Below are positions 17,732 through 57,499 of a stretch of 64,000 nt of DNA, piece by piece. Source of the stretch: Druceiella hillmani (Eukaryota > Arthropoda > Insecta > Lepidoptera > Hepialidae); contig JAYKKI010000127.1 of assembly GCA_039881145.1 (NCBI GenBank), positions 992,001-1,056,000 of the forward strand, given 5' to 3'. The position numbers and the translations under genes are program-made. The notes under the pieces are model-generated. The model was given only the letters and a program-made list of their open reading frames with translations. It was not told the DNA's origin and searched no databases. Each line of letters starts with the position of its first letter. The stretch's first letter is position 1.

Positions 17732-18032
17732 CACAAGTGAATAAAACCACTAAATGTTGTATTATATCTGTTTTATTTAAATTATTAACCACGACCTAGG
17801 TTCCGCTTTATGACAACATCTTCAAGTGGACAATTTGAAGTAATTTCTCTGACAATTTGCTGAGATGTCTTCAAATTTTTCACCTGAATTGTTTGTCATA
17901 TGACGAACCCTGGGCCGTGGTTTGTAATTTAAATAAAGTAGATATAATACTACATCATGTAGTTTTATTTAGTTGTGAATTAGAATTAAGTGATAATGAA
18001 TACTCACAAAATTAACCCAAATATATTCAATA
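17732..18032 (+). mobile_element. Fold-back hammerhead-like element, copy 1 (old)
   Basis: Left arm begins 'CACAAGTGAATAAAACC' and contains 'ACCACGACCTAGGTTCCG'. The right arm is the reverse complement and continues to the long end 'AAATATATTCAATA'. Both ribozyme-like cores are damaged: the left has C3 changed and GGAA for GAAA, and the right has a rearranged CUGA region with stem II replaced by 'GTCATATGAC'. It belongs to the older subfamily with a 'GAATTAAGTGATAATGAAT' insert in the long end, shared in part with the copies at 29.6 and 35.8 kb. Confidence 0.75.
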
Positions 18033-21000
18033 GATAAATTTTTGACTAGAATTTTCAAAAGATGTTGTATTCGAATTTAAGACCGTTTGATCTCTTATTA
18101 CGATTTATATAGTATTCTCAGTCTTTCGTAAATGCAAATCTCCGAGTGCACAACGTATGTTTACCACGTATGTGTAACATATTTGCGTAAAACCTTTCTA
18201 TCTATTTTGTAATTCTCTTCTAGGCATTAGGTAAATTAAAAACACCTCGTGTAATTCGGTTGCCCATCCATATATCGATCTAGTTTGAACGTGCTTTGGA
18301 ATGCATGGAATTCAGCGATCATCATTCGGATTTTATTTGGAAACCTACTATGTATTAAAATAAGTGATTTTATTTACTTCTGTCCAAATTTACATTTGGA
18401 TACGATGATAAGGAACATCTTAGCTAGCAAATTTAATTTATTTAATTATTAAATTATTTTTTACTTTCTGGTATGAAATTTTTTGAACTCGGTTTTTTAA
18501 GACATTTTCTTGCTAGTTTTAGATATCACCCTCCTGCCTGACAGATATAATCGTCCTATATTGCTTGGATAAATTGCCTATATTAATCAAATCAGCATAC
18601 TAATTAAGTGTTTATAAACCTAAAATACGTTGAAGTGGCGCATGATTATGTTTCGAGGTAATTTTATAGTACTTTTGTTTCAGGTACCATGTAATAATAA
18701 ACTTTTCCATGTTTTTTTATATTTTTCCACACGTAAATATCCATACTATATTAGATTAACTATAATAACAATCTGAATACGTAATTTAAAAATATGTTTA
18801 TTTTTGCAAATAATAAGAGATGATTTCCTTTACCTTCATGTTATGTTTTAAGATTGTCAAAAATATTACCTGTTAAGTACAAATAAAACTAGTAGCACGA
18901 GGATTTAGGATTAAATTAAGATTTTTCTAAACATGAATATTATTTTTCACCTTATAAATATATTTTAAAAACAAGCGTGAAAACATCATGAACTTTACAA
19001 AAGCTTCGAATGTTTTTGTCTCGATTTTTCATTTTTTTCCGTGTCTCATCAGCGTCTTTCAATTTAAATAGAATTAATTTTGCAACTGAGTGTTTTTACA
19101 AGATTGGCTAATACTGGATAAGGACAAAGAACATGTTTTGTAAATTATATTTGAATTTTTGATAGAGTATATTCAATCCATAAATATTTACGGTTTATCA
19201 TGAACCACAACTTCAAACTATGAATATCTTAATAGATTGTATAAAGAATATTTTGTACATAGAGCAATACGTATCATGGATTCAATTGTAACTGTCTGGT
19301 AATAAACTGTTTTGTAGTACGATAATTTTTCCATGACGTGATGCATCACCACTGATATTTTTACAACAATGAAATTTTAACTGAAATAGAATAAAATCGA
19401 TTACTGAACCCAAAATGGAAATCGACCTTTCTTTAGGATATATTAGTTGCATAACTTAAGACCAGTAAGATAAAGAAATGTGCATTTTATCCATTAAAAA
19501 TTATTTTAAACACCCTCAGCTGGTTATTGAGATCAAGAAATCTTGGAAGTTTCATATATTGTCAAGTTTTGAATCATCATAAAATTTTCGGGTAAATTTC
19601 AAGTAACGCTATGGTAACGTAGGAATTTATTAGTTTTTTTAATGTGTATAAACAATTTTACATATAATCCTGAAAAAGTAATTTTTTTAATTTTTATATG
19701 ATCCCTTTAATATTTATTTGTGAAAAGTTTAAAGTATAAATTTATTGATATATTTGACAGGTAATATGCTTTATAACTATTCCAAATTTCTACGTCTAAC
19801 AATTTATGAAAGGAATGCCTGTGACAGATATAGGGACGAATATGTAAAGGGGTTTTTATAAGGGTCTTTCTTTCCTTTTGTGGTACGCAAACCATTTCTT
19901 TTCTTTTATTTACGTTGGAATAATGTGTCGAAGAAGAGACCAAAAATATTTTATTTATTAATCCTGAAGTTTGGTTTAATTTAAAATTAAATACAGTTAT
20001 CTTTTTAGAGTCAAGGATATAAACTCTCAATATCTAACTAGTAATATATTATTAAAAATTAGTACAACACTCAAAATGTATTAAAATTTTTTGTTCACGT
20101 GGTAATTAAGCAATAACATGTAATAAGCTAGGTCGGCTGACCTCTATCTTGGCGCTAATGATGTAATAGAACGATTCCATTCCTCTCTTGAAATACTCAT
20201 AAAAACATACAATAAAAGGTTTTTTGTGATTAAGAAATTCATTCATTATTCTATTACTTACCAATTTCAAATATTTTTTCTAAATTCCATAGGCGTGATT
20301 ACTATATAAATATAATAATATCACGTTAATTTATATATGAATTTTAATGAAAATGTAAGCTCTCATTGTTTTAAAATAGAGAAGGTAATTATAGGATTGA
20401 TAATTTGTAAATATTGTAATTAGTCACGCCCTTTCTATATGGTTTGACTTGGTTAGAATCATGTAATAAGAAGCAACTTTCGATCTTGCTTTCGCTGATA
20501 TATTTGGTTGGACACACAAAGCCATCATGCTGAGATCTTAAACCCCTAGTGACCTTCAACCCCTTTCACTCTGCTTACCCCAATAACGTAGACATCAGAC
20601 AGATGACAATTTTATTTCGTAACATGACTTGAATGAATAGGAGTTGGTGGACAAAATTTTCACTATCTGTTGTTAAACAATTATGACTTAAAATTAAATT
20701 TTTTATTAAATCATGGCATTCAGAACAAATTTTCCAATTTGAAATACGTAAAAATGATTAAAAATATAGTCTGTTATACAGCTTGCCACACTGATCAATT
20801 GTCCTTCATAGTGGCTATATTAATATCGATCATGTCACTCGTTTAACAAAGGGGTTGCAGTATTAACGCATTACTATTTTTATGTTAATACTCTAACACC
20901 TTTGCTAAATTAATGAAATGTTTAAAGTAATACACCAATGACAAAAGATTATTGATCTTTTTGAAAAACTGATTAGCGCCAAATTTATTTCTTCTTCGAA

Positions 21001-23170
21001 GTTTGGGAAACAAACTTATAAACTATTTGTTGAAGGTATACTTCTTTTGCCACGTTATGAACGAAATAATGAGAGTGGAATTTTACGAGGCACGCATGCA
21101 CGCACACGATGCAACGAAAATCGACAGGGTGAAGTTGTTCACTAAACATATATTTACATGCGTGTAGTAACTGATGCCATATTCTGGTAGTTATTCAGAT
21201 ATTTGTGAATACAAAACACGTGTTTTATATTAATGCAAGTCTAAGTTATATCTGTGCTTTTAAATTATATGTTTAGTAATTGAAATTTAATGTAATCCAT
21301 TTAATACAAAACATTTATTTATCGTTAATATTGTGATAGAAATAGTGCTTATAAACTTTCTGGAATATAAATACTTCAAACGTATTTTTCTAATTGAGGT
21401 TAAGTTTCGGTGTGTATTTATTTACATTATAAATTAAAATTTTTTTTAGACTGTTATATTAAATTTAAAAATTCATTATTTTCTTTTAAATTTTTGAAAT
21501 AATTAAATTTTGATATTAAAATTAATTAAATTTCATTATTAAAACAAGTTCTAAATTTAATTTATTTAATTAGTTTTTTATATCCATTAATTATTTACCT
21601 CTAAATAAAGTTATTCTTGCATTACGCCAAATAAATTTAACTTAAATTTTTATTTTTAGCTTTAATGTAGAGTAAATGTTACGTCAGATTAATGCAGTTT
21701 AAACGCTCTAATGATACCTAAATATTTAAGTCAAATTGTAAAATTTTGAAACCTTGATTTCTATTTCTTATTTCTACTATATAAATAAATTTTAGGTAAA
21801 CAAACAGTTACAGATTTATATTTAGGAAATGCTCAATCATAAAGGCTATTATTTTCGTTAAAGTCGTAATACCCACCGCATTGTATAACAACTTCAGGAT
21901 AGAGCACAATACTTAAGAAAATTCAACAAAACACCGGGGTTCTTAGCTATCATTTTATTATGAAAATAAGCTCCCAAAATATAACAGCTGGAAGCTTTTG
22001 TACGTTCTCTCTTTTATTCTGTGACTTGATGCTTTTAAAGTATTTACTTTTTTTGTTGCTAATGAAGAATTATTAAAACATTATTATGAACAGCTTGGAG
22101 CTTAAATTAACGGAAGAGCACTGACGTGTATTCCGGGGCAAAACCTTTCCTAATTTCATTTTGTATACTTTAATATTTAAATTAAAATTAAGTACTTCAT
22201 TTAAGGTGAATCGCTGTCGTTATAAAGATGAAGAACTTGATGAAGAGTTTGAATCGGAAAAATAATTTCGTTCACAGTGTGTGTACGTTCAATGTCTGGT
22301 TATACAAGATGTTTTACTTTTCTATTTTGGTAACACAATTTAAATTCCGGATTAAATTTAAATTTAATTATCAATTATAATACTTTATTTGACAAAAAAT
22401 ATAGGGGATTGTTATTCATTGGCGAAATAATTTTTTTAGTTAAAAATATATATCGTATGTATTTTCAGCCTCTTGTTTTGCTATAGTATTGCTTTCATTT
22501 TTCAAGCATATAGTACTTTTTGGAAAATTAGTTTGAACCAAAGCTTTTGACAAATTTTTAAACATTTCCATTCTTTAATAATTTTTAATGCAAAATAATT
22601 TAATTAATTTGTCATTCTGAAGAACTTTTCTTTCATAAATGGTTAAGTAACAAAAATAAGATATTTCCTGAAATAGGTTTGAATTTTCGCGGTATCATTA
22701 CCGACCTCAGAAATATCCAAGGGATTTATGATAAGGATCCGTGCAGAATCTTTTACCATAAACATCAATTCCTTATTCATTCCATAAATAGAAGTATTTA
22801 AATATCCAATTATGCACATATACCGCACACGCTACCTTATCTTTCTAAGCTACTTAAGCTAACAACCAAAATCCGTAACAGCCAAAATAATGTATTTGTA
22901 TGCGAGGTAAACATATCTACTTATTTTATATAAAAACCCAATATAAAATTTACAGGTTACCCCAAAACTATAGACATATACACATACTAAAAGTACAACT
23001 CTTTACCTTTCACATAATACCTAAATAAAAACTAATAAACCAGAAAAAAGACACATTAGTCAAATTAAATATCAAAATAACTAACTATTAAACGTGAACT
23101 ATCGAGAAATTTCTACTCTGTCCTTCCACGTTACCCTCAAGAGCATAAAGCTTTACCAAACCCTAAACGG
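18033..23170. other. Long AT-rich stretch without recognised genes
   Basis: Both strands were read and no TE domain or host exon is recognised. The longest minus-strand frame (19707-20030, 107 codons, starting inside AT-rich DNA) has no familiar motif. A 'TCTCTTCTAG' acceptor-like site at about 18215-18224 is followed by about 24 open codons and a stop, which is too weak to call an exon. Confidence 0.45.
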
Positions 23171-23184
23171 AGGGTTTATACATC

Positions 23185-23206
23185 GGAGGTGGAGGGTGAG
23201 GAGGGG
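23185..23206 (+). other. G-rich tract, possible G-quadruplex
   Basis: Runs of two to four G separated by single A or T bases, with further GGAGG and GGGATG runs to about 23240. It is exceptional in this AT-rich window. At least four G-pairs are available for a two-tetrad quadruplex on the plus strand. Confidence 0.5.
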
Positions 23207-24425
23207 CATCTTTGTTTGGAGGTGGGATGTTTGTGGGATAAATATCTTTGTATCAAATTCACCGAGTACATGGTATTAATCATTTGAAGTCACGGCTAAA
23301 AATACACATCCAAAATATTTGAATTTCTGGTGCCTAGTTAACATTTATTCATATATACGATTAAATTGGCTAATATTTTGCAAAATTGAAACCCTCTCAC
23401 TTTACTTCATCATTCATTATATCATAGTTCCCTTTATAAGTTAAAGAGTAAGTTTTGCGTTACCTTAAAGTTGTGACTTGAAATTTTAATAGAAAATATG
23501 ATATCTTTTAAAAATTCAGTAACTCATTCCTAGAAAATATTCGTACTTGCTAGTATTGGCAATATTAATTAAAAATTGTAATCATTTTTAACAATAATTT
23601 TGTTTACTACATCTTTTCCTTATTTTACATTAATAAAAAGGAATGAATTAAAAGCTATATTCATTTACTATTCTTAATTCATTTCATAACAATTAGAAAT
23701 GAATGGGAAACGTTTAAGTATATAATTGGCTATACACGATGTTATATATATATATAAGCAATGTTTTGTGATATGGAATTACATATTGGCTATATAAATT
23801 GGTAAACATGATTGCAGGAGATTTAGCTATTTCCATTCAAATTTCTTATGAATTATTTAGTCAATATTTGAACTTTCCATTTTTTTGCCTTTCAAACCGT
23901 TTGACATTAATTGGGTGACGTTGACAAAAGTACCGAAAGTAGAAAACTTTCTCGTTTTTCTTTGCCTTCAGTCCTACATTTTTCTTTGCCTTCTATATCT
24001 ATTACTAAGGATCGTATTAATAGACGCAGACTTTGTTAATAGACGCAGACTTTATTTTATATTAAATCGTTACTTAAAATCAGATTTAACACTATTTTTG
24101 TTCAATAGTCACTATCTAGACACAGATTAATTAGCTTGGACTTTTTAATATGGATTAATTTAATCGAGATTTAGGTTTTGATTCTCCGGTTCAGTAGAGA
24201 AAAGTAAAGTTTAAATTTGGAACTGACGTATTAATAGACTCGAAATCTCTCAAAGATTTGACAGCTCAAAAACGATAACTACGTAAACCGAGAAATTGGT
24301 GGTTTACTACTAGATTAGTCATGACAAAACCACAAATTATGTTATTTTAAGATTATTAAAGTGACTACTGAGTAATTGTCACATATTTTATTTCCATATA
24401 TTTTTGTTTATTATGAATTTTATAT

Positions 24426-25740
24426 ATGCAACTACAAACAATATTATGCTATCGAGACTCGATTATAAGGGATGCCACAAACCCATTTGAATTTTGGTTC
24501 GAAGACGAGTTTAAACGTCAATATACTCGTAGATTTTCCAAGGATTGCCTGTTGTGGTTTATTCTTTCAAAAATTGAGACTGATTTAACGTTCTATTTAA
24601 ATCAAGGATTATCTATTAGTCCGGCTATTCAATTTTTGACATATTTACGATTCTATTCATCGGCCTCATTCCAGGTTTGTATCGTTATGATAAAGGTGTA
24701 TATCATGTTAACTTGTAAATGATTTGATGTTTTCGAAAAAGGAATTACACTCCAACCGCGTTTTTTTTTTCAGACTGTTTGTGGAGAGTTTAATGTAATA
24801 TCGCAAGGCACCTTTTCCAATATCGTTACAAAAGTACCGGATCCACTATTGATATTTACTCCAGATATAAGTAAATTCTCCAAAAATAACATTCAAAATC
24901 AAATATTATTTGCAGAAATGGGCAAAACGCAACAATTTAATGGAATTATTGGATTGATTGGTACTATAAATTGTACTCATGTACGTATTTTATCTACCCC
25001 TGGACATGTAAATAGTGAAGCTTCCTGAAATAGAAAATCAGTCTGAATCTTTTTAGTTATTGATTGTACTCCAACGTAATGCTGTATTTAATACGAAATA
25101 TTTGTTGTTGTTTCTAGGCAGTGGCCGGCATGCGTGGAAAATAATTTGATATAATTGCAAGATATGCAGATTACATGCATGATAGCCGCATATTCCAAAT
25201 GTTATTAAATCCTCAAACACAGAGTGAACAGAATTATAATAATGCTCACATAAAAACAAAGTATATAGTGGAAAAAATGTTTGGCGTTTGAAAGAAGTTT
25301 GACATCGCCGTGTTGTGTAGTATTGTGGTCTTTGTTGCTGCGCGCACCGTAGGGAGCCGGGTTCGATTCCCGGCCGTTCGTCAAACGGGACTGGACTGAT
25401 ATCATGGTTGGCTGTAAAATATTGTTCTCGTAGCAATAAGTCCACCATATGTATCAATTAGTTACATTAAAGTAGATAAATAAACAAATAATGAAGCGAT
25501 TCCCATGTCTAAGTATAGGTAATAAGTTGTTAGTCAATAGTCATTGTCAATATCATGTTAGCTGTCCTGTTTTATATAGCATGGCTATTTTATGAAATGA
25601 TCAGCTTTCCGAGGAGACTGAGATGGTATTTATATTGGAAGAAGCTTATATTGGAAAAAGCTGTCAATATTCTAATTCCCTTGGAAACAGATTCGGGATT
25701 TGCACAAATTTTAATTGATTCATATTTTGTAATCAGTTAA
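24426..25740 (+). pseudogene. Harbinger (HARBI1-like) transposase pseudogene, split by SINE
   Basis: Part 1 (24426-24674) reads 'NPFEFWFEDEFKRQYTRRFS' then 'LTYLRFYSSASFQ', the N-terminal HARBI1 signature. A 99-bp intron (24675-24773) has GT, a poly-T tract and CAG ends. Part 2 (24774 to about 25030) continues 'GEFNVISQGTFSNIV' (family GDLFGVSQSTVSRIV), then 'GLIGTINCTHVRI', where the catalytic Asp of IDGTH is Asn. Part 3 (about 25146-25300) holds 'MHDSRIF' (second Asp kept), then 'QNYNNAHIKTKYIVEKMFGV' with the Glu kept. After the SINE, part 4 resumes in frame as 'FPCLSIGNK', then 'CPVLYSMAIL' and 'NDQLSEE'. In-frame stops occur in parts 2, 3 and 4. Any activity is lost. Confidence 0.9.
25301..25500 (+). 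mobile_element. tRNA-derived SINE inserted in the Harbinger pseudogene
   Basis: About 200 bp. It has a pol III B box 'GGTTCGATTCC' at 25360-25370 and an A-box-like 'TAGTATTGTGG' at 25318-25328, followed by a tRNA-unrelated body and an AT-rich tail ending 'GAAGCGATT'. Removing it rejoins the HARBI1 frame ('GV-KKF' to 'FPCLS'). A short imperfect duplication ('GAAGTTT' and 'GAAGCGATT') may be the target-site duplication. The tail shares the 'AATAAGTCCRCCATATG' block with 37534-37610. Spacing and box sequence resemble tRNA-Asp or tRNA-Glu types, but the parent tRNA is not certain. Confidence 0.8.
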
Positions 25741-29277: not shown

Positions 29278-29279
<2 letters not shown>

Positions 29280-29341
<62 letters not shown>

Positions 29342-29342
29342 T
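29280..29342. repeat. TA microsatellite with short AC end
   Basis: Near-pure TA followed by 'ACACACACAT'. Confidence 0.95.
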
Positions 29343-29610: not shown

Positions 29611-29895
29611 TATTGAATATATTTGGTGATATTTTGAAGAAATTCATTATTACCTAATTTTTATTCAAAACTAAATGAAACTACGTGATACGGTATTATA
29701 TCTTTGTTATTTAAATTGCTAACAAAGAACTAGGTTTCGTTGTATGACAACATCTTGAGGTGACGATATCTTCAAATTGCCCACTGCTGATATTGTCATA
29801 CTACGAAACCTAGGTCATGGTTAATAATTTGAATGAAGTTCATATAAAACTGCATTAAATAATTTCATGTAGTGAATATAAATTAAGTGATAATG
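29611..29895 (-). mobile_element. Fold-back hammerhead-like element, copy 2 (old)
   Basis: Long end on the left ('TATTGAATATATTTGG'), then an arm with 'CTAGGTTTCGTTGTATGACA', a short spacer, and an inverted arm with 'GAAACCTAGGTCATGG'. The right side also carries 'AAATTAAGTGATAATG'. Stem II is kept on the left with loop CAU for AAU. The catalytic strand is altered on both sides (left C3 context UCAAGA, right CUGAUAU), so self-cleavage is not expected. Confidence 0.7.
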
Positions 29896-29899
29896 TTAT

Positions 29900-31572: not shown

Positions 31573-31710
31573 ACATATTGTTAGAAATTCATTGTTCACA
31601 GTTAAATGAAACTACGTGATGTAATATTATTTCGACTTTCTTTAATTTCTTTACCACGACCTAGGTTTCGTTGTATTACATCTTCAGGTGGGCTATTAGC
31701 AAAGATCTGT
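31573..31710 (-). mobile_element. Fold-back element, copy 3 (single arm)
   Basis: One arm only, from 'TTAGAAATTCATTGTTCAC' through 'GAAACTACGTGATG' to the ribozyme-like segment at 31654-31691 (minus strand), then 'GGCTATTAGCAAAGATC', which is the spacer sequence of complete copies. Three bases of stem II are missing. The second arm is absent. Confidence 0.75.
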
Positions 31711-34846: not shown

Positions 34847-35814
34847 GGATATGTGAGTTCTAATTTAAAACATTATGAATACTATGTATGATCAATTGAA
34901 TGTTGTTCCATACGATATGCGTACGTTATTTTAGTTTTTTAACTTTCGTATTGAAAATTACCGACATACGCAACACGGTTATACTGGTTGCCAAAGTCTT
35001 CACTTCTACATTGCCGTCTTAAACATACCATTTTTTTAAATTTAATACGCCAGTCTTAACACTTTAATAGCCACTTCAATTAGGTTAAAAGTAGTTTTTT
35101 ATTTATTTTTATAAATAAAAATAACTTGTCAATAAAATTGCTGTTAGAGAAAATTCATAAGGAAAATCCTCGGTCTGCAATAAATTTCCATTATTCCTAA
35201 CTCCATCATCATCAATGTATGTTGTAATTAGAAACCAATATGTATGTCGAGTTTCAACCCTTTAGTATATTAGAATATGAGTAAAATATCGATTACGAAA
35301 TTAGTTACATAGTCACAAAATAAAGCAAGATATAAAAACTATTAAAAAATTTCATAATCTTGCACATTAAAAGATTGTATTTGAATACAGTTATGGGAGA
35401 ATTGTAAAGTTCTTGTCGTATTATTTACAGATTATGTACAAACATAGGTCATCTAATAGATACTCCCTATTTCTCTTCTATTACTTACTTCCATAAAAAA
35501 TAATTTAGTCCTAACTTGATGAAGTTGAAAACAATTAACTCGTGAAATTTAGTTTTGTTTCCAAGGAGTAATATAGGAAAATGTCTTTACTTTTAATACA
35601 AATTAGCTCCTGGAAAATTTATAGGGATTAAAGTTTTTGACCAAATCTAAAAGGTACATTTGATAGGAGGGCGATTTTTATTTTAATTATTTAAAAGTTA
35701 TGTCCAGTATTAGATAATTAAAAATTCCTTAAAAAATATTCTTTGTACCGTCTTCCGTAATTTAATTCAGAGTCGACGGATGTATTCAAATCGAGTATTT
35801 TCAAATATTAAATT

Positions 35815-35965
35815 ACTCATCTGAATATGTTGTTATAAAACGAAACCTAAGTCGTGGTTAAGAATTTAAATAAAGTAGATATAAACCTAGATCACATAGT
35901 TTTATTTGATTATGAAAAATTAAATTAAGGGACAAGAATCATTATAAAATTAATGCTAAATATAA
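35815..35965 (+). mobile_element. Fold-back element, copy 4 (single arm, old)
   Basis: Right-type arm only: 'CTGAATATGTTGTTATAAAA' followed by 'CGAAACCTAAGTCGTGG', then 'AATTTAAATAAAGTAGAT', 'CACATAGTTTTATTTG' and an AT-rich long end. The ribozyme-like core is degraded (CUGAAUA for CUGAAGA, and stems II and III weakened). Confidence 0.65.
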
Positions 35966-39769: not shown

Positions 39770-40115
39770 TTACTATGAATTTGGGGCTGGTTACCCTGTA
39801 TATTAGTTAATTACTTTTTAATAAGGAATGACTCAATTATATGAATTTGTGACCACTTACCGTATTTATTAGTTAATAATTTGTTAATACAAAAGGAATC
39901 GTAATTACTATTCATTTGAGTTGGTTACCCTATTTGTTAGTGATTTGTTAATATAAGAGAAATCATCATTAATATACATTTTGGGTCTGGTTACCTTGTT
40001 TTTTACTTAATGACTGAATAATTTACCTAATATAGATAATTTACTTAGAAATTTAAAATAGATAATTCACTACAATGAGTTCGGGGCCGATTACCCTGTT
40101 TGTTAGCTACTAATT
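39770..40115 (+). repeat. Minisatellite, about 67-bp unit, five units
   Basis: Each unit contains 'GAATTTGGGGCTGGTTACCC' or a variant, then 'TATTAGTTAAT', then 'AATAAGGAAT'. Units begin near 39781, 39848, 39917, 39982 and 40083. The inverted counterpart lies at 56810-57440. Confidence 0.7.
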
Positions 40116-40465: not shown

Positions 40466-42139
40466 AATGGGGCAAACGCTTAGGCCAATAATAATCTATT
40501 GTAATAATTGAAATAATTTAAGACTATCAATATTAAAAATCATTCGGTTGAAAAATATGATCTAGGTGTAATTTTAGTAGTTCGTTTGTACTTTTTCCAA
40601 ATGTAAATTTATTTCCATTCGTTAAAATTCAGTACCTAAAATGGATAAACTTAACCCAATTAACCTATCAGTTCTTCTGTTTATTTGCCACAACCTATTT
40701 CTATAATGACCACGTAACCAAGGGAGAATGCACAAAAATTACGGGTTAGATGAGTAATCAATTTCTTTTTTGACCCCATTTTTGGGATATTTAATTGAAG
40801 TCAGTGAAATGGAAAATATGAAAATATAAACTTCATTTACCTACTAGACACAAATATTAAAAGGGGGGGGTAACAAAATGTTTTTTTTAAATTTATATCT
40901 ATAAAAACAGCGATAGAGTAATTGAAATATTCTAAATAGATGAGCGTCATATACATCCATCTAATTTCAATTATGATGGAACATTCCTATTTAGCAAACT
41001 AGATTTGTCCTTAACCGCGTTTTTGTATAAGATATTTAAAACCACTATCGTGTTAAATGACATTTAATATGGGCATGGAAATGCTATAAAAAATATGTTT
41101 ATTATGTTTTACAATCCGGGGTAAAATATTCAATCTATTTTTCCAGCCTTGAAAAGAAATTTTTAAATTTCAACTTTTATTAGTTTCTTCAATCCCTTAT
41201 TTCTTATTATTTCTATTAATTTTTCCTTGTAATATTAAAGACCATTTCATGTATGAACTTGAAAATTTATGATGACTTATAAAGTATATTATTTCAAGCT
41301 ATATATAGATGATAAATATAGAAATTACACAGATGATATAAATTCAAACTAATTTCATTTCTTTCGTATTTTTGAAATTGATTCATGAATATGGTCAGTG
41401 TTTTTTTAATAAATAGTAATTTTCAAAATTTGTATGCTGAATATCAAAATCCATATCGTGGAAAAGTTGACACTTGGAGAGGCTGCTCCTTGAATCCATT
41501 GTTGGTCTATATAATCGCCTAAAGAAATTTTATGGAAACTACCAAATATTAGAGTGCATAGTTTGGTATATATTTTAAGTGATTCTAATTCTTGTAATAT
41601 AAATTTTCTTCAAATACTCCTTAATCAGAGGCTCTAATTTTATAGGTATTCAAATAAAAAAAAATTCGGGTCCATTTTTAAGAAAATGTTTGATTTTTTA
41701 AACTTTTTCTTACTTATGTTGTAAGTTTCATAGCCTACATGTGAAAACATTACCGAATTATAAATAAGAAATTACCAAAAAGATATGAGTGCGAAGGACA
41801 ATATTTAGGAGAGAATACGCATAACAAAAAATATACTAAACCTGACCGATACAACATGTTAACTTGATAAGACATTACAACGTATTCATTTTCACGCTTT
41901 TTCTTTAATTTCATCTATAATTTTTTGCCTGTAAAGTCAGGTTTCCCTTAAGTGAAATTGAATTCATTTTATAGTAAATATCATGACAAGGCGCGGATTT
42001 GCTATTGTGTTTCTTGGATGATTTTGTAATCAGTTCGGAAATTTTCAGTCGTTCCAGAATTTTTAATATTTTTATACATATACACAATTAAATGAAACTA
42101 AGTGATGTAGTATTATTTCTACTTTCTTTAATTTCTTTA

Positions 42140-42180
42140 CCACGACCTAGGTTTCGTTGTATTACAACATCTTCAGGTGG
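42140..42180 (-). ncRNA. Hammerhead-ribozyme-like segment (consensus)
   Basis: Read on the minus strand, 41 nt: stem I strand CCAC, core CUGAAGA (fits CUGANGA), one extra U, stem II GUUGU with loop AAU and ACAAC, GAAA, a 3-bp stem III with a UA loop (ACC and GGU), C17 as the predicted cleavage nucleotide, and GUGG closing stem I. Stem I is open-ended, giving type I topology. An extra nucleotide after A9 is known from a natural viroid hammerhead. Activity is inferred only. Confidence 0.5.
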
Positions 42181-42238
42181 ATATTAGCAGATTCTTTATC
42201 TAGAGATAGATTTTTATTTAGAGATCTTTGCTAATATC

Positions 42239-42279
42239 GCACCTGAAGATGTTGTAATACAACGAAACCCAGGTCGTGC
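42239..42279 (+). ncRNA. Hammerhead-ribozyme-like segment with stem I covariation
   Basis: Same fold as the consensus, but stem I is GCAC with GUGC instead of CCAC with GUGG, so the outer C-G pair has become G-C. The stem III loop is CA instead of UA. Core CUGAAGA, GAAA and GUC are intact. Confidence 0.5.
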
Positions 42280-42375
42280 TATAGAAATTAAAGAAAGTAG
42301 AAATAATACAACATCACGTAGTTTCATTTAAGTGTGAATAATGAATTTCTACAAAATTAAGCCAAATATATTCAA

Positions 42376-46752: not shown

Positions 46753-46839
46753 TAAACATTTAATGGTACATAATATTCCTATTGCACTATTTAAAAACAA
46801 TTAATTACTTGGGAAAAAAATATACTGCCTGCTACATCT

Positions 46840-47262: not shown

Positions 47263-48670
47263 AATTACTTAATTATAATAATTATATAATTGACTCTTTA
47301 TAGGTTTATTAAATTATAATTATTTATTTGTAAAATATTACGGTTTAATAATTAATCATGTTGCGATTTTTTACGTACAAATATGACCAACTTAAAGTAC
47401 TATTGAGTTTATTGAGTTAAATATAAATAAAAATTTTCGTTAAAGTATTGAAAACTAGGTATTTTAATTTTTAGTTTTTATTTCTTTGCACTTATTTTAG
47501 GTGTGAGAATTAGTTTAGCCACCGTAATCGCATTCTAAGATTCTGCCACGGTTTTATTTATGGAAGTTACAATTTAGTTGCATATTTAGGATTATGTTAT
47601 CGGGTGCTTTCACTGGGACAGTGAGCATCTCTTTTTAGTTAGTCTATCGGTATACAATCCATAATCAGTTACCAAAATTCAGAAGTGAAGGTATAAACCT
47701 TTAAATCATATCATGACCATTTATTTAAAATAAGACTTACAAAAAATGTACGTAATATACAACCTTTAACAATGATAAGATAATTATGAATTTGCATAAA
47801 CACACAAAAATATTTCTATGTATTTTCATATGCACTAAAACCATTTGTTAATGTTAGCTGTTAGAGAGGCAGATTTAATGACGATGTCTATTTACGGAGT
47901 AATATGATATTTAAATCAAACTTAAGTTCGAATGTGTTTGTGCAAATAATTTTCTTCCGCCATAATACCGCACGGGTTTAATAACACTTCAGACGTACCG
48001 TATTTCAGAGTTCACTTCATTATTTCTCAGTGTAGCGTAGGCCGCATGCATAGCTTACCTCTGAGCTCAGATAAAGCTTAAGTTGCCTGAATAATCAAGT
48101 TTATCGACTTAGTTACCGACGAACATGAAGAGTATTCTCCATGCGTTTATGTAATTATTACGTTAGTATTACATGGGATATTGGAGCGATTAAAATTTGT
48201 GTATTAAACATAGTCATTTAACAAAAATATTAAATTTAAATAATTTCGAAATTGGTCTGTAACTGAGCTTCGTGAATCAAGTCAAGGATTTCTCTCATAT
48301 ACTTACTTATCTATAATATGTTATTACATATTTCCTATTAAATTTCTCACAAAGATATCTATTGTTCATTCCACTTAATAAAACATTAGCAAAAATCGAC
48401 CAAGTGTAAAATATATTCATACTATATTTTTCAGTCACTTTTAATATTATTGACCTATAACTTCATATTTTTTTGTTTTCTAACTTACGTCCTATTGTCC
48501 GATACGTATGTCTATTTTTGCTTTGTTTATATGTTCGTAAATCTGAACATTTTTGGTGACGAGTTAATAAAAGTTTTAATTGGCATAATATAGACCATAT
48601 TATTCTAAAAGTACACATTTTACACTACACATATAATGTCACAAAATCAATAACAAGTGATTTTTTTTAC

Positions 48671-48890
48671 AATTTAATAAAACTATGTGTTGCAGCATTA
48701 TTTCCACTTTCTTCCAATTCTTTACCACGACCTAGGTTTCGTTGTATTACAACATCTTCAGGTGGGCTAAATAGTACAACGAAACCCAGTTCGTGGTAAA
48801 GAATTTAAAGAAAGTAGATGTAATACTACATCACGTAGTTTCATTTGATTGAAAATAATAAGTTTCTAAAAAGTTACGTTCTGTCAAAAT
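48671..48890 (+). mobile_element. Fold-back hammerhead-like element, copy 6 (right arm shortened)
   Basis: Short end 'CAATTTAATAAAACTATG', a complete left arm, then the right arm starting inside stem II ('AGTACAACGAAACCCAG'), so the second core lacks its CUGAAGA strand. Then 'ACTACATCACGTAGTTTCAT' and a degenerate long end. Confidence 0.8.
48725..48765 (-). ncRNA. Hammerhead-ribozyme-like segment (consensus)
   Basis: Identical by eye to the minus-strand segments at 42140-42180 and 57128-57168, with all core positions and the three stems intact. Confidence 0.5.
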
Positions 48891-49607
48891 TCAGAATCGG
48901 TTTTAATTGATTGAATGAAAGCATATTTCAAATATTCCTTATTAGGCCGCATTAATTCCATATTGTTTATTTTAATAAAACTACCTAAAAAATGTTAAAT
49001 TAACGATGTAATTTTTTTAAAATTTCTCAAAAAATGGTTCGAAACAAATATTCGTAATTTAACTTTTAATGATTCGTAATGATGTTTCTGTTACAAAAAA
49101 ATATGATGATGATTTTTGGCACAAAGTGATGGTCAATAGATATTTCCTATAAAATTAGCAAACTTACTTTACACAGTCAATATAAAATATACATTCACAT
49201 TTTGGAATCAACTAAACTAATATAAGTAGGTTAATATAAAAATAAATTGCCATTATTTTGGAACTTATGAATTTTGAATTAAAAATTAAATGAAATCAAA
49301 AATTTTTAAATACTCCCACTTTCACCTAATTTCATGTCATGCAATGATTGAAACGTATATCTAAATTTCAAAGATATTATTACTACGAATGCATTGCAAT
49401 AATTTATATAGTTTATATAAGTTTTTGTAAATACTCAATCCTGTTTTTTCTCATCGATGTCTGCGATTTAGGCTTTAATTGTCTCCTAGGTTCCACATGG
49501 CATTTACTTTCCTAAAGATAATAGTGCCCAATAAAATATTGTGAGACTTTTGTTTTGTTCTCAAATATCTTTGTGGAATCTTTCAAAATGTCACGTTGAA
49601 AATTTAT

Positions 49608-49624
49608 ACACACACACACACACA
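49608..49624. repeat. Short AC microsatellite
   Basis: Eight AC steps. Confidence 0.9.
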
Positions 49625-49719
49625 AATTTTGGTTTAATGAGAAAAAATCCAACTGAGGTTTACACATCGTCGTATAATGATCTTTATTTGCTATGACTAA
49701 TAAGCCCGTATAATTTATA

Positions 49720-49997
49720 TTACCCAGTACTTCCCTTAATTTGTGGTCGTTAAGGTGGTTTGAATTAGCGGTTCAAGTTTCTATGTTTTCTTATGCTATT
49801 CAATTTATCTATTTATGCAAATTTGTCAGCCGTCTTTCATCTGACTTTCCAATATGTATTCTCATTTCTAATTACGTGAAACCTGTAAAAATGTTCGATA
49901 ATTTAAGAAATCTTGCAAAATTTTATAAAAAATAAGTGAAATTTTTTTGTGTCAAATAAAAATATTTACAGGAAACAGTCAAAGAAGACCTAATCAA
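49720..49997 (+). repeat. Extra partial direct copy of 42.67-42.95 kb segment
   Basis: 'GCGGTTCAAGTTTCTATG', 'TTTGTCAGCCGTCTTTCATC' and 'AAAAAATAAGTGAAATTTTT' match 42723-42895 in direct orientation. A third copy lies inverted at 50.96-51.16 kb. The segment therefore sits beside its own inverted copy. Confidence 0.7.
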
Positions 49998-50027
49998 CTA
50001 CTTGATTAGGTCTTCTTTGACTGTTTC
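49972..50027. repeat. Perfect 26-bp hairpin with CTAC loop
   Basis: Arms 49972-49997 and 50002-50027 are perfectly complementary ('AGTCAAAGAAGACC' in the left arm). The paralogous sequence at 42931-42965 has only one half, so the hairpin was generated after duplication. Confidence 0.95.
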
Positions 50028-50054
50028 AGTATAAGCAAAGATTTGCTAAAGTAA

Positions 50055-50165
50055 AGATAGCCCACCTGAAGATGTTGTAATACAACGAAACCTAGGTTGT
50101 GGTAAAGAACTTAAAGAAAGTAGAAATAATACTATATCACGTAGTTTCATTTCTTTTCTAAATAT
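50055..50165 (+). mobile_element. Fold-back element, copy 7 (single arm)
   Basis: Right-type arm from 'GATAGCCCACC' through the ribozyme-like segment at 50062-50102 to 'CACGTAGTTTCATTTC'. It sits at the inner edge of the right inverted arm, next to the perfect hairpin. Confidence 0.8.
50062..50102 (+). ncRNA. Hammerhead-ribozyme-like segment, C17 to U
   Basis: Matches the consensus except that the predicted cleavage nucleotide is U (GUU in place of GUC), which still satisfies the NUH rule. All stems are intact. Confidence 0.45.
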
Positions 50166-51360
50166 AAAATTTCATGAAATATATTCATATCAATATAAAT
50201 AAATTGTTAAAACTATTGTTACAAACCAACACCTAACATAATTTATAAGCCGCAGAGTTGTGATCAAGCCAGTCGTTTCAGCGAGATTTAAATGGCTCCA
50301 TTTGAACCCTTTTCATAAGAATTCTGAAAACTGCAGTAAACGCAAAAATAGCTAGAATAAGAATTCAACGAAAAAAATCTGATTTGAAAACGTGATCCGG
50401 CTACGTATATTTATTTTTTTCAGATAGTGACTGCGCGAAAGTAAATTACTGAAGCATCGAATTTATTACAGTCTCTTAATTTAATTAAGTTTATCATTTT
50501 TTTATTTAGGAGATATAAATATTGTTTTACTTTTCGTTTATTCTAATTTGAAGATTCATATTTTATTATTAATACAGTTTTCCTTGTCGCCATAATTACT
50601 ACATAGTCCTAAGTATTAATATTAAACAATACATATTTTCTTATATTTTTATTTCGAAGATATAATTTTACGTAAAACTGATTATTATTTTAAGTCTGAA
50701 TAAAAAAATTGGGATTTATGAACTAATACATATCGCATAAAATAGTATACAATGTTTACCTTCTTTATTTAGGAAAAAGGACCATTTTGAGGTAAGATAT
50801 GCTACCGACCGTTAAGTAAAATGTGGGCAATGTATATACGTGAGAGTATCATGATACAAATCGATAAATAAACAAACGTTTACCCAGTTGAACCAGTGAC
50901 TTAATTAGCTATTCCTTGATTGTTTTCTACGAAATTCATTATTATTGACTTCTACGCAAAATTTGTCACTTATTTTTTTTAACATAATGCTAGTTTTCTT
51001 AAATTATAAAATATTTTCAAAAACGTTAAAATAATTAGAAATGGTGGTTTATATTGGAAAGTCAGGTGAAAGACGACTGGTAAATTTATGTAAGTTTATG
51101 AATTGATAGGAAATCATGGAAACTTGAATCGTTAATTGAAACCTACTTACCGAAAATAAACTAATACCGGATAATATAATACTAGGTATTTATTAATTAT
51201 ACCAAAACACAGATCAATAGCACGTCGATGCGTGATGCGTAAAGCTCAGTTGGTTGGTTCTTGTTAAATCGGTTGGTCGAGTAGAAATTGATAAAGGCAT
51301 AAAAGGCCTATAAAATAATAGAATCAAATTTATATAATATATATAGTTTTTGTGTACACA

Positions 51361-51392
51361 TATGTGTATATACATATATATATATATATATG

Positions 51393-51466
<74 letters not shown>
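51361..51466. repeat. TA microsatellite
   Basis: Homologue of the tract at 42376-42480. No fold-back element is present beside it. Confidence 0.95.
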
Positions 51467-51467
<1 letters not shown>

Positions 51468-52447
51468 TATTCAAAATTCTGGAAGGACTTAAAACTTCCG
51501 AATTGTTTTTTTCAAAATCATGAAAGGAACACAATAGCAAATCCCCGCCTTGCCATAGTATTTACTATAAAAGGTATTCAATTTCACTTAAGGGAAACCT
51601 GACTTTACAGGCAAAAAATTATAGATAAAATTAAAGAAAAAGCGTGAAAATGAATACACTGGAATGTCTAATCAAGTTAACATGTATCGGTCAGGTTTAG
51701 TTTATTTTTTGTTATGCGTATTCTCTCTTAAATATTTTACTTTGCGCACATATCCTTTTGATAATTTAAATTATAATTAAGTAATGTTTCCACATGTAGG
51801 CTATGAAACTTGACGTAAATTACAAAAAGTTAAATTTTAAAGATGTATAAAAATATCTTTTTCTAGTTTTTAAATGGTTCGTCAAACATGAAAGGGAGAC
51901 CGTGGTTATAGATATAAATTTAAAATTGATAGTTTGATAGATTCCGTTGAGATATTTGAGAACAAAACATGTACTGGAGATGTTATAATTTAAATCATGG
52001 TTTACCGAATAGGACAAAGTCCAGGTACAAAACATAAGTGTGACAATATTTTATGAGTACTAGTAGTTTCAAGAAAGAAGACGTCATGTGGAAGCAAAGA
52101 GACAATTAGAGCCTAAACTGCAGATATCGATACGATAAAATATATTTGGGTACAGCAATCATACCTTGGAATTTAAAATATACGTTTCAATCATTGCACA
52201 ACAAAAACGTAGGGGTTAATGGTGGTTTTTCACAAATTTTCATTTTTTTTTAAATTTTTAATTCGAAATTGGAGAGTTCCAAAATCATAAGAAATTGTTT
52301 TTACATATACCTACTTATATTTGTTTAGTTGATTCCAAAATGTGAATGATATTTTATAATGACTGTATAAAGTACAGGCTTACGAATTTGGTAACAAATA
52401 TCTACTTATATTCAATTATATTCATCTGTGTAATTTAAATATTTATC

Positions 52448-52459
52448 ATATATATATAT

Positions 52460-52518
<59 letters not shown>
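52448..52518. repeat. TA microsatellite with palindromic flanks
   Basis: Bounded by 'ATTTATCATA' and 'TATGATAAAT', so the whole tract is one self-complementary block. Confidence 0.9.
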
Positions 52519-52521
<3 letters not shown>

Positions 52522-53324
52522 AAATATTAGTCATCATATTAGTCATTATAAATTTTTCAAGTTCTTATGTGAAATAGTCTTTAAAATTATAAAAAAAATT
52601 AATAGAAACAACAATAAACAAAAGACCGAAGAAACTAATATAAGTTGAAATTGGAAAATTTCTTTTCAAGGCTGGAAAAATAGATTGCATATTTTACCTC
52701 AGATTGTAAAATATAATAAACAAATTTTTGATTGCATTTCGATGCCCATATTAAGTGTCATTTAAAACGATAGTGGTCTTAAATATTTTATGCAAAAACG
52801 CGATCAAGGACAAATCTAGTTTGCTTAACAAGAATGTTCCATCATAATTGAAATTAGATGGATGTATGTAGAATACCTCGGTTTCTGTATCGCTGTTTTT
52901 ACAGAGATAAATATTAAAAAAAGATATTTTGTTACACTTTTTTTTAATAATTGTGTCTGTATGTAAATGAATAATTAAATATTTTCCATTTCACTGACTT
53001 TAATTTAATATCCGAAAAATGGGATCAAAAAAGAAATTGATTACTCATCTAACCCTTGGTTACTTGGTCATTATAGAAATAGGTTGTGGCAAACAAACAG
53101 AAAAACTGATAGACCAATTGTGTTACGTTTATCTATTTTAGTTACTGAACTTAAAAAGAAATCATTTTACAACATATGGTAAAAGAACAACCGAATTTAT
53201 TATATTACACCTTTGTCATATTTTTCAACCAAATTATTTTTAATGATGATGGTTTCAAATTATTTAAAATATTACAATACATAATTATTATCCTAATCGT
53301 TTGCCCCATTTCCTTGAGGTTGGC

Positions 53325-55480
53325 TTTTCCTCTCCTCATTTTCCACGAGCATCGTTTTTCTATACATGGTATTCCAGGTTTGCATATCTAAGGTATTTTT
53401 AAACAGTCATCAAAAGAGTAGTGGGTAAGCTATTTAGTTACAATTTAACTATTGAAAATTCTGAGGTTATTTTTAATATATATCCTTTGGCATCTCTTTT
53501 ATGTTCACCTCTTTGTTAATTAAAGAATATTTTTGCACTTGATTTGCATTTTTTTAAATAGATTTCGTTAAGGTTTTCTTGATAACAGATTTTATAGCCG
53601 TAGTTTATTTGTTACAATTTACTCTGAGGAGCACTTTTTTATTATAGTAGAAATTTCTATACTCTTTCAATTTCACCCATCACTGGTTTTAAAATTTACC
53701 ATCACCAATGGCTGAGCCTAGACATTTAAATTGACTCATTGCGAGTAGTCGTGCAACTTCTACTTATCTCATTATATCACGTCATTCTGAAGTGTTATCA
53801 AGTACACCAGATGTGTGTTCTGTCTTTTTTCGCTCTCTCTAAGACTGTTTTCTTTCAATTCTTATATACGTTGGTTAAATGGGCATTAAAGTCACAAATT
53901 TTGTGATGAGACCAAGACTGGATTATACGAACATACAAATTTTTACATTATGCAGTTCGCAATGATATTAAATAGCAAAAACTAAGCGTGAAGCCTTTGA
54001 ACAAAATAGTTTTGAATCTTATACATTTCGCATTCTGGTATATGGTGTACTTTTAGTACTTCCTACATAAAATCTCCTCAAAAATAGTTAAAGGACTTTT
54101 CTCTACCAATAAATACAACAGATAGGTTTATAATTTGTTTTAGCAGTCTTCTGAAATATCAAGACAGCCATAAACTAGGAATAGACGCGTATATTTTCAA
54201 CAATTTAAAGCCGGGATATGAAAGCCTCGTATTAACATATATAACCTAAATCATTGGCATTCCACGATACAACCTAAATCACTGTCATTTCATTCGAATA
54301 TTTTCTATTGGTATTCTTCTTTATTATATATTTCTTTATAACTATAATGACAATATTCTAAGACGTGAATTTTCTTGAAACCCATAGGCTTAGTTCCTTA
54401 TTAATTTTGTATAATGATAATTGTGCTGCATATTTATGTCAGTACCAACATTATCTTACCAATAATATGATAACACCTATATATTTTATCAATTAACCAA
54501 AGCGAATAAAATTTGTTGATAATATTCGTTAAAAATGTATAAAAGCCAAATTTTAATATTTGTCATTTTGGGATACACTAAAAAGATAAAGCAATATGTT
54601 ATGAAATAATATTTTTGACATATCGGTGTTGTCAGTAACAAGCGACTGAACTCAAAGGCCATTAAAATCAATGACGAAAATAGTATTTATTTTTAAATAT
54701 TATTTTTGTTACTAATTTTAATTTCAAATTTAACATAAAATTTGAGTAGATTTAGGTATAGTGCGGTAAGGGACTTAGTACATCAGCGTGCCTCTACGGA
54801 AATGGACCAGCACCAAGAGAATATCCCGAATTCCTGAAGATCTATCTTAAATATAATTCACAAATTTATTATTAATTATTACTATAAATATATTAAATTC
54901 ATTTACAACATTTCCTGAATTTCCCTTGTGTGATTTTTATCTAAATCCTGGAAGTGCGTGGACAATTTATTTAGTTCCTAATATATAAATACAAATCTAA
55001 ATATTGTTTACAGATTATATTTCCATTTTACAATTCAATTCAATGTGTTAAATCATAATCCCTACAATCATTACTCCTATAGAGGACAAGGTAAGTTAGT
55101 GTTATTAATATTTATCATAACGTAATATTATAAAAAAACGCACCGCCCACCGAGACTACAATCTATGTTTTCATTATTAGTGATGTGATTGACGACTATA
55201 AATGTTGCTTCTTCAGAAGAGAAAATTCTCCAAGCAACCTATAAAATAATTTTTTCACCTTCGTCTGACAATTATTCCAAACATAAACGAAAACAATCTT
55301 ATCGTCAATCATCGCCAAAAGATCATCATTTCAAACCTAGTGTTCAGGTCACGACAAGAAATTTATATTCCCCAAATTCGACACACTTTGAAGGAATCCC
55401 AAGTATGTGTACACAAATTTTATTAGATTCCAAAGAGCAGGTCATAATGTTAACAACTGCTATAAAATAGAATATAATAA
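53325..55480. other. Right-arm-only sequence, no recognised gene
   Basis: Absent from the left arm, where sequence matching 53310 joins directly to the LINE RT fragment. No TE domain is recognised apart from the LINE beyond 55480. The weak frame at 55189-55470 is listed separately. Confidence 0.5.
55189..55470 (+). CDS. Unrecognised 93-codon Ser/Lys-rich frame
   Basis: Open from a TTG with no upstream ATG, ending in TAG. Composition is polar ('KHKRKQSYRQSSPKDHHFKP') and less AT-driven than its surroundings. It ends about 240 bp from the LINE stop on the other strand. No motif recognised and no splice sites convincing. Low confidence that it is a gene. Confidence 0.2.
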   Translation: MTTINVASSEEKILQATYKIIFSPSSDNYSKHKRKQSYRQSSPKDHHFKPSVQVTTRNLYSPNSTHFEGIPSMCTQILLDSKEQVIMLTTAIK

Positions 55481-55711
55481 TGGAAGCTTAAGAGATTAGT
55501 TAAATTCCAATCACCAATATGATAATTTATTTATAAATTTATTTCTTGAAAACTCCATGCCCAACTTACAGTATTACCCAAATCGCTGGGTATGTGGAAG
55601 AAAGAACATATAACAAAGAGTTGTAAAACAATGACAAATAGGACAAAACACTCATAGAGTGATTCCATACAATTGAAAAACAAATATACAATTAAGTTAT
55701 GTGGATAAATA

Positions 55712-56600
55712 TTATCTAGCAATCAGTCGACTACTAAGCAACTCAGTGACCCCAATGGAAATGGTCAATGGAGCATAAAAAATATCTAGATTTGGCGAAT
55801 CTCGCAACACTGCATTGAGAAATGTGAGTGCACGAAAGACAACCGAACGCTGTAGAATATTCGTACGAGCTCTAGAGAGGTAAAATAAACAATGACGTCA
55901 TCCCCTCATGCAGCAGCTATAAAGGCCCACTAACCTCAGGATCGAGGGGTTACCAACATAATGATTTATTAATTTAAAAAAAATGCATTATTAAAAGCAA
56001 TTCCCTTCGGAGTTTAAGAGAATTACATCCAACCATACCCATTATGAAATCTGAAAGAAATAAATAAGGATAATACCCATGCATTTTATAATACAAAAAC
56101 CTATTAAACTTTTTTAATATTTTCTCCAGCACAAGAATATAAGTACCTTCATACGGTGACCAGATGACTGCATTCGTTTCTAGTGTACTACGGACTAAAG
56201 AGTTAAATAGTGTAATGACATTTGGTATCTTAAAATCGTCAGAATTCCGTATGACAAATCTTAGTACCTTGTAGGCTTTCTAATAGGTTTCCACGATATG
56301 AATATGAAATGTAAGATGATTATCCATAATTACACCAAGATTCCGCATAGTTGAAACCCTCCTAAATATAGCTCCGCCTAGTTCATAATTACGCACAAGT
56401 GGGACACGTAAACGGGAGTATGTCATCATAGCACATTTGCTTACATTGAAATATAGCTTGTTGCTCAGACTTCATTGGAATACTGAATCGATATCATGTA
56501 GGAATAGATCACTGTCAAATTGACCATTAACACCAAAGAAGAGTTTTAAATCATCGGTAAAGACAAGGCAACGAGCAGTTCTGATAACTATATAAGCGGA
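55712..56600 (-). pseudogene. CR1/Jockey-like non-LTR retrotransposon, C-terminal half of RT protein
   Basis: In order on the minus strand: 'RTARCLVFTDDLKLFFGVNG' (the F-x-DD catalytic box), 'DSDLFLHDIDSVF', 'SNKLYFNVSKCAMMTYSR' (family LNV.KC..M.F.R), 'RRVSTMRNLGVIMDNHLTF' (family V...KDLGV..D..L.F), 'LFNSLVRSTLETNAVIWSPY' (family LVRS.LEYAS.VW.P), 'NSLKLRREL' (family SL..RR), 'SRARTNILQRSVVFRALTF' (R.RT....P) and a stop at 55712-55714 after 'LLSSRLIAR'. Several frame changes and stops. 5' truncated near 56600. An AT-rich tail reaches about 55510. Confidence 0.9.
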
Positions 56601-57127
56601 ATTAAACATTTACACGTAATAATCGCAATTACAAAAAAGTAAATATCGAACAGCACAGAGTTGAACAGAGACAGCACAGAGAGCAGAAAATTAACAATAA
56701 TAAACCTAATTTGAACTTGTAAAATTTTTCAATAAGCATCGTGTAAGAAAGACATAGAATCAAGCCGATACCATCCATACCTATCTAAACAATTTGTATC
56801 AAAATTAGTAGCTAACGAACAGGGTAATCGGCCTCAAACTCATTGTGGTGATTTATCTATTATAAATTTTTAACTAAATTATATATTTTAAGTAATTAAT
56901 AAGTCATTAAGTAAAAAAACAAGGTAACTAGACCCAAAATTTATATTAATTATCATTCCTCTTATATTAACAAATCAATAACAAATAGGGTATCCAATTC
57001 AAATTACTAGTAATTACGATTCCTTTTATATTGAATATATTTTGCGTTAATTTTGTAGAAATTCATTATTCACAATTAAATGAAACTACATGATGTAGTA
57101 TTATTTATACTTTCTTTAAGTTCTTTA

Positions 57128-57168
57128 CCACGACCTAGGTTTCGTTGTATTACAACATCTTCAGGTGG
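57128..57168 (-). ncRNA. Hammerhead-ribozyme-like segment (consensus)
   Basis: Same 41-nt sequence as 42140-42180. Core and stems intact. Confidence 0.5.
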
Positions 57169-57210
57169 GATATTAGCAAAGAAAGTAATTCAACATTCTT
57201 TGCTAATATC

Positions 57211-57251
57211 CCACCTGAAAATGTTGAAATACAACGAAACCTAGGTCGTGG
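57211..57251 (+). ncRNA. Hammerhead-ribozyme-like segment, core mutated
   Basis: CUGAAAA replaces CUGAAGA (G8 to A), and a U to A change (UGUUGAAAUACAA) weakens stem II. Stems I and III are intact. Predicted inactive. Confidence 0.45.
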
Positions 57252-57499
57252 TAAAGAACTTAAAGAAAGTAGAAATAATACTACATCACGTAGTTTCATT
57301 TAAGTGTGGATTCCCTTTGTATTAACAAATTACTAACTAATAAATAGGGTAACCAGTTCCAAATTTATATAATTAAGTCATTCCTTAATAAAAAGTCATT
57401 AACTGATATACAGAGTAACCAGCCTCAAATTCATAGTAATGATGATCTTTCCGAAAATCAAAATATTGATAATAAACATTTAAATAACGATTCGACAAT

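Follow-up and report, generated by a model that had tools for sequence, protein, structure and literature searches.

Origin of the arms

How does a short foldback element, whose inverted arms carry a segment resembling a hammerhead ribozyme, come into being in very many places of one genome? This question is raised by a 64-kb stretch of the lepidopteran Druceiella hillmani (contig JAYKKI010000127.1, positions 992,001 to 1,056,000; in the following, the window), which lies in a 2.586-Gb assembly to which all genome-wide counts refer. Most probably (with a probability of roughly 75%), these foldbacks are insertions of the pseudo-long-terminal-repeat (pLTR) of a Penelope-like element (PLE), for which both 3' ends of the target primed reverse transcription on separate RNAs. 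The arms are linked to an endonuclease frame, a tail is present on one side only, the target duplications mostly comprise 12 bp and nearly all central junctions are different; from these observations we infer the priming on two RNAs.

A BLAST search with three elements assigned eight insertions in the window to one family (at approximately 17.7, 29.7, 31.6, 35.8, 42.1, 48.7, 50.1 and 57.1 kb). An initial annotation, which was made from the sequence alone, had named the same eight places and had ascribed inverted arms to all of them; two inverted arms are present in five insertions, and those at 31.6, 35.8 and 50.1 kb possess a single arm. In the genome, the pattern of the hammerhead-like segment gave 44,019 matches (22,014 forward and 22,005 reverse) and the reversed control none. 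A shortened form, in which the stem II region is 3 nt shorter, accounted for 12 of about 100 genome places listed. Systematic sampling of 200 kb (20 stretches, one fixed coordinate on each of 20 chosen contigs) yielded nine insertions, eight of them with paired arms, which extrapolates to approximately 100,000 insertions genome-wide (Poisson range approximately 50,000–220,000). A further 39 loci, of which 34 are two-armed, were obtained with the ribozyme as query and are thus selected for the hammerhead. A query consisting of the outer arm and the tail found no candidate at all, which probably reflects the omission of frequent words by the search. An AUG inside the ribozyme serves as the reference point for positions in the arm.

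A genome search for GIY-YIG endonucleases, in which 150 of 1572 candidates were scored, returned two frames. One of them presumably resembles SLX1, and the other we take to resemble the endonucleases of PLEs. The PLE-like frame, located at L083/L084, matched the Pfam GIY-YIG model with 34.3–34.5 bits (cut-off 22.6) and is followed in the same sense by 466 nt and then by an arm reaching from -26 to +126, including the tail. Five loci that had been chosen by the ribozyme only (L028, L042, L075, L080 and L014) match, in alignments, the final part of this open reading frame (ORF) and/or the 3' untranslated region (3'UTR) upstream of the arm. In L028, the alignment comprises 725 columns with 76% identity and extends from within the GIY-YIG frame to the end of the tail. 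Because the order of GIY-YIG frame, 3'UTR and arm recurs at six loci, the arm is, judged by its sequence context, the pLTR of a PLE. The Penelope elements, to which the initial annotation had referred as a parallel only, are the right family. The motif is hammerhead-like and of the minimal PLE type, and it occurs once per intact arm.

Among the 34 two-arm copies, the tail was found on one side in 28, on neither side in five and on both sides in one. The latter copy, L046, is an inverted duplication that takes in flanking DNA; its tail and the flanking target sequence are both inverted, and the palindrome extends into host DNA. Target site duplications (TSDs) with a score of at least 10 were detected in 22 of the 34 two-arm copies and in none of 34 mismatched flanks. 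An exactly duplicated word of at least 8 bp is present in 25 of the 28 one-tail copies (12 bp in 16, 13–14 bp in four and 8–10 bp in five). After correction for orientation, the 34 copies show 33 distinct central junctions.

The right part of the central junction is common to L030 and L047 (GATTGAAGACCACC), which lie 79 kb apart and have different target duplications. This looks as if one truncated source RNA had served twice.

The hammerhead-like segment

Four of 13 window arms contain the complete 41-nt segment with CUGAAGA, an extra U, a 5-bp stem II, GAAA, a 3-bp stem III with a 2-nt loop, GUC and a 4-bp stem I. A fifth arm has GUU instead of GUC, and the remaining eight are mutated, truncated or deleted. 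The features of a type I hammerhead (CUGANGA, GAAA, UH and three stems) are present, with one extra U, in these five arms. Core, stems and extra U are as the initial annotation had described them for an intact arm, and the head-to-head arrangement was likewise recovered, with the ribozymes on opposite strands and pointing outward from the centre of the element. An AUG is placed at the base of stem II, as in the element Poseidon of Anolis carolinensis (PAc), so that the extra U is most likely the U of this AUG; the cut lies after the 27th nucleotide of the AUG count (+27/+28).

A descriptor (stem I at least 4 bp, stem II at least 4 bp, stem III at least 2 bp, one insertion allowed) gave 51 matches in 843 Mb of first-order Markov sequence, corresponding to 0.004 per 64 kb on both strands, and five matches in the window. 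As all five belong to this family, they count as one ancestral event. The hammerhead-like motif exceeds chance expectation. In the Rfam search no match was obtained at the gathering threshold, and at E ≤ 10 no hammerhead was obtained for stretches of 41 kb and 291 bases. A 61-base slice of the 57-kb copy matched Hammerhead_1 (RF00163) with 16.6 bits (E 0.058). The covariance model, which the initial annotation had suggested as a check, thus recognised the segment weakly, but below its gathering score of 34. Matches to microRNA families in the scans of long stretches were below their own cut-offs and were taken for artefacts of long hairpins. In viral_contigs, exact hammerhead patterns gave no match and gapped patterns four, which were judged as chance by their sequence context.

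The best predicted folds of isolated 41-mers (-7.2 to -9.9 kcal/mol) are not hammerheads. Two 41-mers from the left arm of the 57-kb copy are predicted to co-fold as a dimeric hammerhead with a self-complementary 8-bp stem III (-23.0 kcal/mol), and two segments from the right arm of the 42-kb copy to co-fold otherwise, in a non-hammerhead structure (-28.2 kcal/mol). Transcripts of the whole element form long hairpins (-74 to -178 kcal/mol for five window copies and both strands), in which the ribozyme is paired with its own complement. The proposal that transcripts of either strand carry a ribozyme is thus true of the sequence, but this does not turn the layout into a working device. Nothing in the analysis points to the head-to-head layout as a device. 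The ribozyme may be active in the source PLE, possibly in dimeric form or assisted by a protein. Going by the title of their article from 2017, Lunse et al. reportedly found small hammerhead variants of PLEs which cleave as dimers. The tiny, self-complementary stem III of the segment resembles these variants; unlike there, a dimer would here need two RNAs or arm pairs on the same strand, because the two arms are antiparallel.

In the 200-kb sample, the segment decays to the same extent as the outer arm (31/525 versus 39/689, p = 0.90; 13 of 17 matches used), and a similar result was obtained for those arms of the 39 loci that had not been found by the query (32/1228 versus 59/1744, p = 0.24). 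Within the window, divergence was lower in the segment than in the outer arm (44/492 versus 92/636, p = 0.006; all 12 arms used), as it also was among the old window arms (17% versus 25%, p = 0.04). Strong conservation of the hammerhead in the arms found by the query (13/1558 versus 63/2055) was rejected as a selection artefact, as this set was chosen by the hammerhead and the other arms and the 200-kb sample are without excess. For the same 39 query-selected loci, 36 of 66 segment-spanning arms are identical to the consensus. Altogether, the copies appear to decay neutrally. One compensatory double change was found in the window, in stem I of the segment at 42239–42279, and none was recognised among the 66 segment-spanning arms, which were inspected by eye. 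Decay of the stems without compensatory change, which the initial annotation had regarded as speaking against a ribozyme, is thus largely what the copies exhibit; it is expected for insertions that are dead on arrival and says little on the source element.

It might be argued that the motif merely resembles a hammerhead and never cleaves. The weak Rfam score, the different folding of the monomer, the decay of the segment, which equals that of the outer arm both in the non-query arms and in the 200-kb sample, and the recurrence of the form with the shortened stem II would all be in line with this. We consider it unlikely, although it deserves to be taken seriously: core and three stems together are hardly to be expected by chance in a window of this size, the segment is better preserved than the outer arm within the window, and the motif occupies the position of the PAc hammerhead, for which passages of PMC11167929 report cleavage together with the protein.

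Proposed insertion mechanism

In the proposed mechanism, a full arm would be the DNA copy of an element RNA of approximately 115–150 nt, extending from near -25 to about +90, or to +126 if the tail is included. The PLE endonuclease would make a staggered cut in the target, and each of the two target 3' ends would prime reverse transcription on an RNA of its own, with synthesis beginning at the tail point in one case and at the pLTR end in the second. Joining of the two cDNAs at the ends copied from the palindromic 5' end of the RNA would then yield the head-to-head foldback. The hammerhead motif would be inherited from the pLTR of the PLE, and most templates would be uncut at the motif. Unequal arms, arm-specific variants, the one-sided tail and the TSDs would follow from two target ends priming on two RNAs.

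Alternatively, one cDNA or antisense RNA might fold upon itself at the palindromic 5' end of the RNA and then be copied, so that both arms would derive from one template. Palindromic junctions have been read as the result of such self-priming, which PMC3846280 favours in its passages on this subject, and the inner ends of the arms are palindromic here, too. A single snapback cDNA, however, would not explain unequal arms. The starts of the two arms are at least 10 nt apart in eight of 34 copies (e.g. -25 and +99), and the arms differ with regard to the 3-nt deletion in stem II in six of seven two-armed copies (the set consisted of nine of 11 listed shortened-match loci, two single-armed, and one locus with same-strand arms). 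Where both arms are readable, they also differ in the -10 deletion (8/9), in C39 (5/8) and in the short 5' end (8/9); copies unreadable in one arm numbered two, two and nine, respectively. With these differences between the arms, self-priming is a rather improbable origin of the foldbacks.

Several observations weigh against the explanation preferred here, and the first three of them are at the same time in favour of self-priming. The variant T47 is present in both arms of four of five copies, and the fifth is gapped in one arm. The divergence of the arms is lower within copies (0.0345) than between copies (0.0399; permutation p = 0.0001, 26 copies). Furthermore, L018 and L021 have an identical junction. 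The sharing of T47 and the slightly closer arms within copies suggest that the templates often came from the same subfamily. In addition, the two-template step is deduced from final sequences, and template switching or later gene conversion could mix arm variants too. In 19 of 25 copies, the bases after the tail are AAT, yet the duplication often begins up to 4 nt later; these bases may therefore belong to the element, and a target preference for 5'-ATT is at most tentative. Beside the GIY-YIG frame, no reverse transcriptase domain was seen when the frames at this locus were read by eye, and this frame was the only PLE-like endonuclease found among the 150 of 1572 candidates scored. Finally, the consensus frame opened by the AUG at stem II is closed by a stop as its third codon, which distinguishes it from PAc.

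The site of the predicted cut is crossed by 70 of 76 arms of the 39 loci and by 13 of 17 arms of the 200-kb sample; arm starts within +26 to +30 were found once (1/76) and not at all (0/17), respectively. It is likely that most sampled insertions derive from RNA which was uncut at the ribozyme, as has been reported for PAc templates in vitro. Five of nine arm starts beyond +0 fall at +29 to +38 and belong to three insertions (L045, +29; L064, +33/+36; L046, +37/+38). These arms just past +27/+28 may come from cut templates or be due to chance. They would also suit a retrozyme-like circular RNA element with RNA ends made by the ribozyme, as would the type I hammerhead, the dimeric co-fold of the 57-kb left-arm 41-mers and the arm pairs on the same strand in L079 and L081; yet retrozymes are direct tandem repeats, the arms are inverted here, the cut site is spanned by most of them, and the segment from the 42-kb right arm co-folds into a structure other than a hammerhead, which makes this origin very improbable. 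Mobilisation as a whole, with a transposase recognising the inverted arms, as in a DNA transposon or a foldback of the miniature inverted-repeat transposable element (MITE) type, can hardly be assumed in spite of the inverted ends and the mostly 12-bp duplication, because the tail is one-sided, the 33 distinct junctions in 34 copies mean that the centre is not inherited as a unit, and the PLE 3'UTR precedes the arms in an order of ORF, 3'UTR and pLTR that is common to six loci.

Relation to known elements

The initial annotation had considered the arrangement undescribed. This does not hold, as inverted head-to-head pLTRs with a tail on one of them have already been published for PLEs (PMC3846280). 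Passages of this article and of PMC11167929 describe the pLTRs of PLEs as inverted, mostly head-to-head, with an optional tail of 30–40 bp on one, and hammerheads in pLTRs are reported in parts of PMC6155905 and PMC7761336. Penelope of Adineta vaga, e.g. Pen2a_Av, is similar to the family described here in its inverted and mostly head-to-head pLTRs, the tail on one of them, junction palindromes, TSDs and solo pLTRs (PMC3846280). There, the tail comprises 31 bp and extends the PLE frame, and the TSDs comprise 8–10 bp. In contrast, the sampled insertions in D. hillmani are mostly ORF-less pairs of pLTRs in very high number, with mainly 12-bp TSDs and arms that are often unlike; the arms contain the hammerhead motif, which is not discussed in the respective passages of PMC3846280.

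According to the relevant parts of PMC11167929, the PAc protein cleaves and extends both target strands, two internal starts of reverse transcription bound the tail, and the ribozyme cut is placed 26 bp past the start codon; the later integration steps were left unvalidated there. The AUG at the base of stem II, the cut about 27 nt further on and the tail as a one-sided extension are shared with PAc. However, PAc occurs in tandem repeats and its AUG opens the ORF. In the arm consensus from +94 to +126, a later ATG at +94 stays open through the tail; it could be the start of the frame of the parent element. Non-LTR retrozymes are likewise non-autonomous elements of animals with a type I hammerhead, but they are tandem repeats expressed as linear and circular RNA (passages of PMC7229834). 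Titles and abstracts of the literature on hammerheads with foldback, MITE or inverted-repeat elements and on pLTRs of PLEs contained no description of a pLTR-only foldback family with ribozymes. While the arrangement itself is known for PLEs, the new element of the finding seems to be that the foldback is formed de novo with each insertion.

Features of the window

The copies in the window and their parts are listed in Table 1.

Table 1. Copies of the foldback family, hammerhead-like segments and target sites in the window.
Feature	Position	Strand	Evidence
Foldback copy, old subfamily, two arms, tail right; both ribozyme cores mutated	17727..18028	+	BLAST
Foldback copy, old subfamily, two arms, tail left	29615..29884	-	BLAST
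Single arm (pLTR) with part of tail; ribozyme stem II with the 3-nt deletion known from other copies	31575..31706	-	BLAST
Single arm (pLTR) with tail, old subfamily	35811..35964	+	BLAST
Paralogous empty site of the 57-kb insertion	39886..39900	-	
Foldback copy, two arms, tail right; paralogous empty site near 51464	42078..42373	+	
Hammerhead-like segment, intact core	42140..42180	-	descriptor, folding
Hammerhead-like segment, intact core; stem I GCAC/GUGC instead of CCAC/GUGG	42239..42279	+	descriptor, folding
Foldback copy; right arm ends inside the ribozyme (truncated)	48663..48876	.	BLAST
Hammerhead-like segment, intact core	48725..48765	-	descriptor, folding
Single arm without tail	50057..50173	+	BLAST
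Hammerhead-like segment, cut site GUU	50062..50102	+	descriptor, folding
Left target site duplication of the 57-kb copy; 13/15 identical to the right one	57018..57032	.	
Foldback copy, best preserved of the window; tail left, approximately 57033-57064	57033..57308	-	
Hammerhead-like segment, intact core	57128..57168	-	Rfam Hammerhead_1, 16.6 bits
Right target site duplication of the 57-kb copy	57309..57323	.	

The 57-kb copy is located inside a repeat, and the other copy of this repeat in the window represents the empty site (90% identity over 258 bp). The 42-kb copy, which adjoins a TA tract, also has a paralogous empty site in the window. Around the two copies, repeat pairs in opposite orientation with 87–90% identity were found (39649–40117/56801–57560 and 41870–42575/51273–51669); these flanking pairs supply the empty sites.

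The G+C content of the window is 26–31% (in 4-kb steps). On another contig of the assembly, a frame of 2480 residues matches the split ends protein; among named proteins, the best matches are lepidopteran (approximately 44% identity, 1278 bits), with the best beetle protein far behind (416 bits), which suggests a moth or a caddisfly as the source. A Pfam search with ten window frames gave an RNase H fragment as the sole match; a frame with a retrotransposon-type RNase H-like domain (RT_RNaseH_2, E 5e-14) is located at 57624–57830 (+). The region 3107–8986 is a near-perfect palindrome with arms of 2.9 kb (99%) and an AT tract at the centre, and either a genuine duplication or an assembly artefact; more inverted arms follow at 9200–13222. 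The longest open frame of the window (25053–25457, -) encodes 134 amino acids with a GIEPGSLR-like stretch, which may point to tRNA-derived repeats.

Implications for the integration of Penelope-like elements

The integration of PLEs and the frequent inversion of their terminal repeats can be tested by counting if a large family of short insertions, such as the one described here, is available. The chances are about even that each foldback records the double target-primed reverse transcription of two RNAs, often from different source subfamilies, at one 12-nt staggered cut. The approximately 100,000 insertions would then constitute an archive of integration events of Penelope elements, with most templates having evaded the ribozyme and those of the few arms starting just past the cut perhaps not.

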